Assembly: GCA_009694125.1 (NCBI GenBank)
Contig: SHVT01000004.1
Coordinates: 1 to 44,822, forward strand
Length of the DNA stretch: 44,822 nt
Direction of reading: 5' to 3'
Origin: Rhodospirillaceae bacterium
GTDB lineage: Bacteria; Pseudomonadota; Alphaproteobacteria; CACIAM-22H2
Part shown: positions 21,839 to 25,607 of the stretch, one piece after another
Numbering within the stretch: the first letter of the stretch is position 1
Layout of the letters: each line of letters opens with the position of its first letter
Notes under the pieces: model-generated
Told to the model about the DNA's origin: nothing
The model's input: only the letters and a program-made list of their open reading frames with translations
Databases searched by the model: none
Program-made: the position numbers and the translations under genes

Positions 21839-23182
21839 TCAGGGTTTGAGGCCGACGAAGCGCTCCAGCCAGTGAATATCGTAGTTGCCGTTGATGAAAT
21901 CCGGGGCGCCGGTCAATTTGCGATGCAAGGGGATCGTCGTTTCGATGCCGCCGATGACATATTCCTCGAGCGCGCGCCGCAGCCGCATCAGACATTCGTT
22001 GCGTGTGGCGCCGTGAACGATGAGCTTGCTCACCAGGCTGTCGTAATAATGCGGCACCCTATAGCCGGAATACAGAGCCGAATCGACGCGAACACCGATG
22101 CCGCCCGGCGGGTGGTAATCGGTGATCAGACCGGGCGCCGGCCGGAAGGTTTCCGGGTTCTCGGCGTTGATGCGGCATTCGATTGCGCAGCCATTGACGA
22201 CGATGTTCTCTTGGCGCAGCAGCAGCGGCGCGCCGGCGGCGATGCGGATCTGCTCACGCACGATGTCGAGGCCGTAGGTCATCTCGGTGACGGGATGTTC
22301 GACCTGAAGCCGCGTGTTCATCTCGATGAAGTAGAACTCGCCGTCCTGAAACAGGAACTCGACGGTTCCGGCGTTTACATAGCCGAGCTTGCGGAGGGCC
22401 GTGCAAACCGTCTCGCCCATGGTCTTTCGCTGTTCGGCGTTTAGGGCCGGCGACGGCGACTCTTCCAGGACTTTTTGGTGGGAACGCTGTAGCGAGCAGT
22501 CGCGTTCGCCGAGATGCACGACATTGCCGTGGTTGTCGCCCAGAACCTGAAATTCGATATGCCGCGGATGGCCGAGATATTTTTCGACATAAACCTGGTC
22601 CGATCCGAAATTGGCTTTGGCCTCGGCGCGGGCGAGATGGAAGGCCTCGGGCAGAGCGGCTTTGGTTGCGGCCACGCGCATGCCTTTTCCGCCGCCGCCC
22701 GCCGCCGCCTTGATCAGCACCGGATAGCCGCAGCTATCGGCGACCGCGGAGGCGGCGGCCACGTCGCCGATCGGACCGTCGGAGCCGGGCACAACCGGGA
22801 TACCCAGTTCCTTGGCCATCTTCTTGGCCACGATCTTGTCGCCCATCAGGCGCAGATGTTCCGGCGTCGGCCCGATGAAGGTGAAGCCGTGTTCAACGAC
22901 CATGGCCGCGAAATCGGCGTTTTCGGACAGGAAGCCGTAGCCGGGATGGATGGCATCGGCGTTGGTGATCGTCGCAGCCGACAGAATCGCCGGCACGTTC
23001 AGATAACTGCCGCTCGCCGGGGGCGGACCGATACAAACTGATTCATCAGCCAGCCGAACATGCATGGCGTCGGAATCGGCGGTGGAATGAACCGCGACGG
23101 TCTGGATGCCCAATTCGCGGCACGCGCGGTGGATGCGGAGCGCGATTTCCCCGCGATTGGCAATCAGAACCTTTTCGAACAT
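21839..23182 (-). CDS. accC: acetyl-CoA carboxylase biotin carboxylase subunit
   Basis: MFEKVLIANRGEIALRIHRACRELGI...ATP-grasp; 447 aa. Confidence 0.98.
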   Translation of the reverse strand: MFEKVLIANRGEIALRIHRACRELGIQTVAVHSTADSDAMHVRLADESVCIGPPPASGSYLNVPAILSAATITNADAIHPGYGFLSENADFAAMVVEHGFTFIGPTPEHLRLMGDKIVAKKMAKELGIPVVPGSDGPIGDVAAASAVADSCGYPVLIKAAAGGGGKGMRVAATKAALPEAFHLARAEAKANFGSDQVYVEKYLGHPRHIEFQVLGDNHGNVVHLGERDCSLQRSHQKVLEESPSPALNAEQRKTMGETVCTALRKLGYVNAGTVEFLFQDGEFYFIEMNTRLQVEHPVTEMTYGLDIVREQIRIAAGAPLLLRQENIVVNGCAIECRINAENPETFRPAPGLITDYHPPGGIGVRVDSALYSGYRVPHYYDSLVSKLIVHGATRNECLMRLRRALEEYVIGGIETTIPLHRKLTGAPDFINGNYDIHWLERFVGLKP

Positions 23183-23201
23183 CGTGGTGCTGTCGCGGTG
23201 C

Positions 23202-23630
23202 CTATTCGACGATCAGCAGCGGTTCGCCGTATTCCACCGGGGCGCCGTTGCCGACCAGGATGCGCGACACGGTTCCCGCTCGCGTCGCACGAATTGGGTT
23301 CATGACCTTCATCGCCTCGATGATCAACAAGGTCTGATCGACCTTGACTTTGTCGCCCACCGAAATGAAGGGCGGGGCTCCCGGTTCGGACGAGAAATAG
23401 ACCGTACCGACCATCGGAGAAACGACGGTCCCGGTATGCGCGGCAACATCCGCCACGGGGACGTCGATGGGAACGCTCACGGGAAAGGCCGAAGGGGCCG
23501 GAGGCGCCACAAATCGCGCCAAACGAAGGCGGCGGGTGCCTTCGGCGAATTCGATCTCGGCGAGTTCGGTTTCGCGCAGGAGTTCGGCGAGGCGACGTAT
23601 GAGGTCGGGATCGATGTCGAAATTCTTCAC
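23202..23630 (-). CDS. accB: acetyl-CoA carboxylase biotin carboxyl carrier protein
   Basis: GTG start (V)KNFDIDPDLIRRLAELL; biotinyl motif LLIIEAMKVMNPI; 4-nt overlap with aroQ stop. Confidence 0.96.
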   Translation of the reverse strand: MKNFDIDPDLIRRLAELLRETELAEIEFAEGTRRLRLARFVAPPAPSAFPVSVPIDVPVADVAAHTGTVVSPMVGTVYFSSEPGAPPFISVGDKVKVDQTLLIIEAMKVMNPIRATRAGTVSRILVGNGAPVEYGEPLLIVE

Positions 23631-24088
23631 GGCTGCCTGTCGTCGGTTGAGAGGATTCTGGCCATGGCGTCCAGCGCTAGCAGATAGCCCTGTCCGCCGA
23701 AACCGCAAATGACGCCCCTGGCCGCTTCGCTGATCATCGAGTGCCGGCGAAATCTCTCGCGCCGGAAAATGTTGGACAGATGCACTTCCACGACCGGGAG
23801 TTCCGCCGTCAAGACAGCGTCAAGGATGGCGATGGAGGTATGGGTGTAGGCCCCGGCGTTGATAATGAGTCCGTCGGCGGTGCCGCGCGCCTCCTGAATC
23901 CAGGTCACGATCTCGCCTTCGCCGTTGCTTTGTCGGAAATCGACGTCCAGCGAAAGCGCTGCCGCGCGCTCGCGGCATGCGGCCTCGATGTCGCCAAGCG
24001 TCTCCCAGCCATACAGCTCCGGTTGACGGACACCGAGCATGTTTAGGTTGGGACCGTTCAGGATAAGAATGGCAGCACGCGTCGGCAC
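23627..24088 (-). CDS. aroQ: type II 3-dehydroquinate dehydratase
   Basis: ILILNGPNLNMLGVRQPELYG; GLIINAGAYTHTSIAILDAV; VVEVHLSNIFRRERFRRHS. Confidence 0.97.
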   Translation of the reverse strand: MPTRAAILILNGPNLNMLGVRQPELYGWETLGDIEAACRERAAALSLDVDFRQSNGEGEIVTWIQEARGTADGLIINAGAYTHTSIAILDAVLTAELPVVEVHLSNIFRRERFRRHSMISEAARGVICGFGGQGYLLALDAMARILSTDDRQP

Positions 24089-24192: not shown

Positions 24193-24220
24193 TTGGCAAC
24201 CGGAAAAATCATTCTATATA
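24193..24220 (+). promoter_or_regulatory. candidate sigma70-type promoter for the decarboxylase leader
   Basis: TTGGCA (24193-24198) - 16 nt - TATATA (24215-24220). Confidence 0.45.
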
Positions 24221-24331
24221 TCGCGTTAGACGCATCCGCACGTGCCCCCGGCCCCTGTGGTTAAGCAACGACGTTAGGCGTCCTTCCCTTGCCGGCCCGT
24301 CGATGAGACGGCCGCTTCGCAGGAGGTAGGC

Positions 24332-24418
24332 ATGCTAGTTGTTTTCGCGGGCGCGGTTGGCGCCACGCCGTTTCAGATTGCTTCGCTTCTCCAATCCGGT
24401 TCCGGGCGATGGCTCTGA
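24332..24418 (+). CDS. candidate 28-aa leader peptide upstream of the decarboxylase
   Basis: Perfect SD AGGAGG (24321-24326), 5 nt, ATG; MLVVFAGAVGATPFQIASLLQSGSGRWL*; not in the ORF track because of size. Confidence 0.55.
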   Translation: MLVVFAGAVGATPFQIASLLQSGSGRWL

Positions 24419-24476
24419 CCACTCTTAGGTCGAGCCCGAACGCCGCGCGCCACCCTTCATTGGAAACATCGAAGCC

Positions 24477-25607
24477 ATGACCCCGAAGATTTCCCGATTT
24501 CTCAGCGAAAAGCGCCCGCCGTCTCCTTGCCTTGTCGTCGATTTGGACGTGATCGCCGAGAACTACCGCCAGCTCCGCAAGGCGCTGCCGCTGGTCCACA
24601 TTTACTATGCGGTGAAGGCCAATCCGGCGCCGGAGATCCTGACCGTGCTGCGCGGCCTCGACTCCAATTTCGACTCGGCCTCTATCTACGAAATCGAGGA
24701 GTGCTTGAAGCTCGGCATTGCGCCGTCGCGGATATCGTTTGGCTCCACGATCAAGAAGCGTGACCACATCGCCCACGCCTTTGGCCATGGAATCGATCTG
24801 TTCGCCTTCGACTGCATCGGTGAACTTGAGAAACTGGCGATCGCGGCACCGGGCGCCCGAGTTTTCTGCCGCATCCTGATGAGCGGCGAGGGCGCCGATT
24901 GGCCGCTGTCACGCAAATTCGGCTGCGAAATCGATATGGCCCGCGACCTCATCCTCAAGGCGCGCGACCTAGGACTCGATCCCCATGGCGTGTCATTTCA
25001 TGTCGGCTCGCAACAGCGCGACCTGAGCCAATGGGACATCGCGCTCGGCAAGACCAAAATGCTGTTCACCGCGCTCAACGACGCCGGGATCGAGCTGCGC
25101 ATGATCAATCTCGGCGGCGGATTTCCGGCGCATTACCGCTCGGCCATCCCCGCGATCGACGCTTACGCCGATGCCATCATGGCGGCGATGACCAAACATT
25201 TCGGCAATGACCTGCCGACCATGCTCGTCGAGCCTGGCCGCGGCATCGCCGGCGATGCCGGAACGATCGAGGCCGAGGTTGTGTTGATCTCGAAGAAGGG
25301 TTATGGCGACGACCGCCGTTGGGTCTATCTCGACATCGGCAAATTCGGCGGCCTGCCCGAAACCATGGGCGAGGCGATCCAGTATCGAATCAAGACGCCG
25401 CGCGATGGCGGGCCGACCGGCCCGGTGATCCTCGCCGGGCCGACCTGCGACGAGGTCGATGTGCTGTACGAGAAGTCCGATTACCGCCTCCCGCTTGACC
25501 TGCAGATCGGCGACCGCGTGCAGATCTTCGCGACCGGCGCTTACACGACGACCTATTCGTCCGTCGGGTTCAACGGGTTTCCACCGCTGCCGGCCTATTA
25601 CATCTGA
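24477..25607 (+). CDS. ornithine/lysine decarboxylase, fold type III PLP (alanine racemase-like)
   Basis: CLVVDLDVIAENYRQLRKALPLVHIYYAVKANPAPEIL; VEPGRGIAGDAGTIEAEV; AGPTCDEVDVLYE; TGAYTTTYSSVGFNGFPPLPAYYI. Confidence 0.95.
   Translation: MTPKISRFLSEKRPPSPCLVVDLDVIAENYRQLRKALPLVHIYYAVKANPAPEILTVLRGLDSNFDSASIYEIEECLKLGIAPSRISFGSTIKKRDHIAHAFGHGIDLFAFDCIGELEKLAIAAPGARVFCRILMSGEGADWPLSRKFGCEIDMARDLILKARDLGLDPHGVSFHVGSQQRDLSQWDIALGKTKMLFTALNDAGIELRMINLGGGFPAHYRSAIPAIDAYADAIMAAMTKHFGNDLPTMLVEPGRGIAGDAGTIEAEVVLISKKGYGDDRRWVYLDIGKFGGLPETMGEAIQYRIKTPRDGGPTGPVILAGPTCDEVDVLYEKSDYRLPLDLQIGDRVQIFATGAYTTTYSSVGFNGFPPLPAYYI

Follow-up and report, generated by a model that had tools for sequence, protein, structure and literature searches.

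Results

The window, that is, the whole 44,822-nt stretch analyzed here (contig SHVT01000004.1 of assembly GCA_009694125.1), comes from a Rhodospirillaceae bacterium whose genome is 75% complete. The gene of interest, located at 24477..25607 on the + strand with its ATG at 24477, codes for an ornithine decarboxylase (ODC)-type PLP enzyme. Its product has both domains of the ornithine/diaminopimelate/arginine decarboxylase family (PF02784/PF00278) and its nearest solved structures are lysine/ornithine decarboxylases, in agreement with the identity proposed in a preliminary description of this DNA. Direct reading confirmed the other elements listed in that description, all of them on the + strand: a promoter (TTGGCA, 24193-24198, N16, TATATA, 24215-24220), a Shine-Dalgarno (SD) sequence AGGAGG (24321..24326) 5 nt before an ATG, the 28-codon upstream open reading frame (uORF) that starts there (24332..24418, ATG 24332, TGA 24416-24418) and two small hairpins (24297-24311 and 24350-24364), the second of which was found only within the window's genus. 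The uORF stop and the ODC start are separated by 58 nt. The genes divergent from ODC (21839-24088, - strand) are aroQ (class II dehydroquinase), a biotinyl-domain protein gene and a biotin carboxylase gene; aroQ also adjoins the ODC leader in L002, L003, L008, L011 and L013.

The most conserved part of the leader is absent from the preliminary description. A leader search of 96 genomes, including other genera and families, identified a conserved block within window positions 24229-24343, with GACGCAYCCGCACGUGCCYCUGGCCCC...GUGGUUAAGCAACGACGUUAGGCGUCC at its heart. An aptamer-like RNA core of 57 nt (24229..24285, + strand) was matched with 80.9 bits by R1, a covariance model of the 58-position core. 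Its parts are arranged in the order P0 stem, CGCACGUGCC, P1, GCAACGACG. The P0 stem is formed by GACGC (24229..24233) and GCGTC (24278..24282), and the latter has an alternative partner in the uORF start region. The words CGCACGTGCC (24237..24246) and GCAACGACG (24265..24273) are near-invariant. Another stretch of the core, AGCAAC (24264-24269), is complementary to GTTGTT (24338-24343) inside the uORF, and the core is followed by a hairpin that masks the SD (CTTCCCTTG ... CAGGAGG, 24283..24326); these elements are also on the + strand. The predicted transcription start (about 24227-24229) falls at the 5' end of the core. Among the related leaders listed (n=178), a T-rich -35 and an AT-rich -10 region stand at constant spacing to the core. 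The fold stability of 24229-24350 was not unusual (z = -0.71), and since this score is not significant, stability was dropped as evidence.

R1 matched 77 places in 59 of 386 genomes of the class, while a DNA pattern of the core, which favors close matches, recovered at least 118 loci, including Azospirillum, Nitrospirillum, Magnetospirillum, Reyranella, Parvibaculum, Zavarzinia, Kiloniella and many Acetobacteraceae. The merged set comprises at least 183 non-redundant RNAs. Because the bases of the inner core hardly vary, covariation within it is thin, and the pairing in our RNAalifold model and that in Rfam ar45, which differ, are not separable. Two near-identical loci, L004 (G078:C9) and L005 (G003:C419), belong to genomes assigned to different families and are probably on mis-binned contigs.

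The genes that follow the core in the 183 listed loci were verified by NCBIfam/Pfam and solved structures. They code for ODC in 134 cases, a second PLP decarboxylase in 25, homospermidine synthase (hss) in 6 and speD-speE in 1; the remainder have other genes downstream (3) or are too short to tell (14). The ODC products are more than 48% identical to that of the window, and those of the second decarboxylase about 30%. In a genome of the window's own family, G005, the core precedes odc (L013/L245) and again hss (L240), and in genus g7 of the same family it precedes hss in three genomes and the second decarboxylase in a fourth. The unusual speD and speE target (AdoMet decarboxylase and spermidine synthase) is found at L083 (G342:C105:30615-30671). 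At L006 (G093:C253), the gene that shares the frame of the leader ATG is not ODC but one for a class I glutamine amidotransferase, which may be linked to polyamine metabolism. An artefact of an ODC-derived model was considered as the source of the polyamine context and rejected: no search was restricted to ODC, and almost every hit still stands before a polyamine gene, hss and speD among them. The recurrence of the core and the polyamine genes downstream of it uphold the earlier view that the region is a conserved leader regulating a polyamine gene in cis. The two more complete genomes of the window's genus, G001 and G002, carry speD and speE, while hss was not found in this genus in searches that had G005 and G342 as positive controls. 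As judged from its genes, the genus appears to make spermidine.

Scanning the window and its window-type relatives against Rfam gave no relevant family at the leader, in the case of the window even at E<=10. The speF covariance model (RF00518) at its gathering score matched neither the window nor its genus, and the ar45 model (RF02347) matched neither the window nor its class of leaders. Nonetheless, most RF00518 loci inspected carry CGCACGUGCC...GCAACGACG immediately 5' of the RF00518 match, and this upstream part is Rfam ar45. The ar45 model scored above cut-off in 12 of 386 genomes, each time with an RF00518 match 7-9 nt downstream of it. The alphaproteobacterial RF00518 leaders and the window share a COG0019-type ornithine decarboxylase target, the core words, the position of P0, the pyrimidine/purine hairpin that follows and conservation starting near the transcription start. 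However, RF00518 models only the region downstream of the core, and the window type has an SD and ATG with a uORF where RF00518 has a long structured region. The ar45 core is, like that of the window, CGCACGUGCC...GCAACGACG closed by the P0 stem; the letters of P0 differ (GCCC/GGGC in ar45/speF loci, GACGC/GCGUC in the window) while its pairing and place are the same. In contrast to the window, ar45 has a U-run after P0, usually a larger P1 insertion and an annotation as sRNA. One genome, G247, harbors both types, a window-type core in one place and an ar45+speF pair of Rfam in another (C51 and C74).

The shared core words, the stem layout and the ar45-speF adjacency point to the window's leader as a divergent speF/ar45 member. 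Since R1 scores only 17.9-18.8 bits on the ar45/speF loci of Rfam, this homology rests on 19 shared core bases, their order, P0 and the gene context. With the same core, the same order of parts and a polyamine gene downstream, the leader can be assigned to the speF/ar45 class in the wide sense. The kinship with the catalogued speF RNA that had been suggested holds at the level of the class, while the Rfam speF scan that had been proposed to detect it was negative for the window.

In 122 of the 183 listed loci (118 distinct), an SD and ATG are found 40-90 nt after the core, clustered near 58, so that the window's layout, a hairpin-masked SD with an ATG after the core, is common to about two thirds of the members. 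The hairpin pairs a pyrimidine run, UCCUUUUUGG (window CUUCCCUUG), with the SD strand, CCGAGAGGGA (window CAGGAGG). Its duplex energy was -13.2, compared with -12.4 (sd 0.2) when partners were swapped between sequences. Two-sided changes were present in 10 of 12 pairs, and the percentage paired exceeded that of all 500 shuffles, counts that kinship inflates. When the partners were slid, the number of two-sided cells was similar and pairing was much lower. The hairpin thus covaries, the outcome of a check advised in the preliminary description. Mean SD accessibility in 78 leaders was 0.07, as opposed to 0.35 when the letters 5' of the SD were shuffled, and it was below the shuffle mean in 76 of them; the window's own values (0.17 and 0.27) are less extreme. 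In addition, the core word GCAACG pairs through at least 5 bases with uORF codons 2-5 in 42 of 118 leaders, where 8 were expected. A third platform, found in Acetobacteraceae (L096, L100, L101, L121, L147 and others), has the core before odc, no nearby uORF and a conserved GUUCUGGCAA ... UGGUCGCUGGUCCGUUNGACCGUUUCGCAAC block, which is present in L062 too.

The start of the uORF is conserved and its peptide is not. Two relatives from the window's genus, L002 and L003, lack one base of the window's uORF, so that their codons after about the ninth are read in another frame, and the substitutions between L002 and L003 are mostly non-synonymous. Neither the residues nor the frame are therefore conserved within the genus, as they would be in a speFL-type leader peptide. 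Separate uORFs mostly span 8-77 codons. In 24 of the listed loci the leader ATG opens a frame that runs into ODC; the ODC's own start codon is ATG in 2 of these and not ATG in 22, and several have no alternative start nearby. At L004 and L011 the uORF end overlaps the ODC start in ATGA, and L241, L242 and L244 have a uORF stop and an hss start that overlap as ATGTCTGA. The frameshift, the spread of lengths, the ODC fusions and the stop/start overlaps indicate that the conserved element is the initiation site rather than the peptide. Some other lineages share uORF residues, namely GRKNPLSS with third-position changes and MVAYRAGRVPRYY in Reyranella-type leaders. A second conserved block, CNAGU, lies close to the end of the uORF in L019, L027, L028, L033, L035, L053, L087 and others, where it is read as SS[IM]; it is absent from the window's uORF. 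A role of the SS[IM] tail as a possible arrest peptide was considered but abandoned, since 39 of 43 tails use AGU for the second Ser.

In the unconstrained fold of the window, the SD and AUG are buried (AUG unpaired 0.01-0.03) and GCGUC and GCAAC are paired onward, whereas with the core forced the AUG is unpaired at 0.6-1.0. Forcing the core in 78 diverse leaders opened the SD in 51 and closed it in 1, and opened the AUG in 44 and closed it in 15. From these foldings, the core and full masking of the start look mutually exclusive. By nearest-neighbor energies, the forced core costs on average about 12 kcal/mol relative to the extended hairpin, so something must stabilize it.

Discussion

We propose, with a probability of roughly two in three, that the leader RNA belongs to the speF/ar45 class and acts in cis, with a core that competes with a start-masking fold and thereby sets initiation at a uORF coupled to ODC. 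The proposal builds on what can be read in the sequences, namely the core, the hairpin, the position of the SD and ATG, the regulon and the fusions. Transcription would begin at the core, which would fold as a compact stem (P0, CGCACGUGCC/GCAACGACG, P1); alternatively, its 3' part (GCAAC, GCGUC) would pair onward with the uORF start region and lengthen the hairpin over the SD and AUG. The two folds would exclude each other, so that folding would set translation of the uORF, and this in turn would be coupled to translation of ODC, the two being fused in other lineages. With the uORF stopping 58 nt before ODC, coupling in the window's genome is an assumption. A polyamine-related signal, whose sensing we infer, would probably bias the core. 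The folding models suggest that the start is activated by a signal that stabilizes the core. For other members, the opposite polarity, with the core repressing, is suggested by feedback logic and by the P0-plus-U-run of ar45, which resembles a terminator. In the window the U-run after P0 is gone (longest run 2) and the complementarity to the SD is kept, which makes translational control the better guess there.

A leader with a uORF before an ornithine decarboxylase gene also recalls speFL/speF of E. coli and Salmonella, where the peptide and leader structures act in attenuation. The speFL/speF leader is the subject of PMC6386406. No sequence similarity was seen between this leader and the window, and the window's peptide is not conserved. 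That the nascent peptide of the uORF acts in the ribosome as a sensor of ornithine or polyamines, as in enterobacterial speFL, the parallel drawn in the preliminary description, could draw on the perfect SD and ATG before ODC and on the residues common to some other lineages; it is nevertheless highly improbable, given a frame lost within the genus by codon 10 or so, mostly non-synonymous changes, uORFs of such unequal length, an ATG that elsewhere begins ODC itself and a recurrent Ser codon that speaks of constraint on nucleotides. What survives of the expected uORF conservation is the SD, within its conserved hairpin, and the ATG.

The other alternatives concern the core. PMC7717549 treats ar45 and speF as separate RNAs in Bartonella and describes ar45 as separately expressed and possibly trans-acting. 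An independent trans-acting sRNA that stands before odc by chance has, however, a very small likelihood when the core keeps a near-constant place and the same orientation before polyamine genes in many families, with an SD and ATG at a fixed distance after it in about two thirds of the loci and the speF leader directly after ar45 in each of the 12 genomes. A core bound by a protein or by an Hfq-assisted trans RNA, rather than by a metabolite, is unlikely too, though less so. In-line probing of the A. tumefaciens speF leader (PMC1273637) detected no binding of ornithine, lysine, diaminopimelate, putrescine, cadaverine or spermidine, and S. meliloti ar45 is reported, in a study cited in PMC7717549, to co-precipitate with Hfq. 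On the other hand, no candidate protein was identified, and one core on several downstream platforms is typical of aptamers.

The leader of the window is best described, on the grounds of its core and context, as a divergent variant, undetected by Rfam, of a known orphan RNA class. Corbino et al. 2005 (PMC1273637) described a speF element that opens, close to the transcription start, with a stem bearing a large insertion; a long stem-loop with bulges comes next. As this description already suggests, ar45 and speF would be two halves of one leader. According to a citation in PMC7266159, the speF motif was revised by Greenlee et al. 2018, a revision that may already include part of the present findings. 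A wider interpretation, which we put at a little short of an even chance, is that the core serves as the true aptamer of a polyamine riboswitch (odc, hss, speD-speE) widespread in alphaproteobacteria. Rfam would have split one form of it into an ar45 'sRNA' and a speF 'leader' and left undetected the larger group, where it switches a uORF start fused or coupled to the gene. Homospermidine, outside the 2005 ligand list, is an obvious ligand candidate; as the window's genus appears to make spermidine and hss was not found in it, the ligand may instead be a shared compound, whether putrescine, a triamine in general or some other. From 2005 on, speF has stood as an orphan riboswitch candidate, and the larger set supplies a minimal core to test, together with grounds for taking ar45 to be the 5' half of the leader and not a trans-acting sRNA. 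It also extends the regulon beyond odc into homospermidine and spermidine synthesis and offers natural variants with different outputs.
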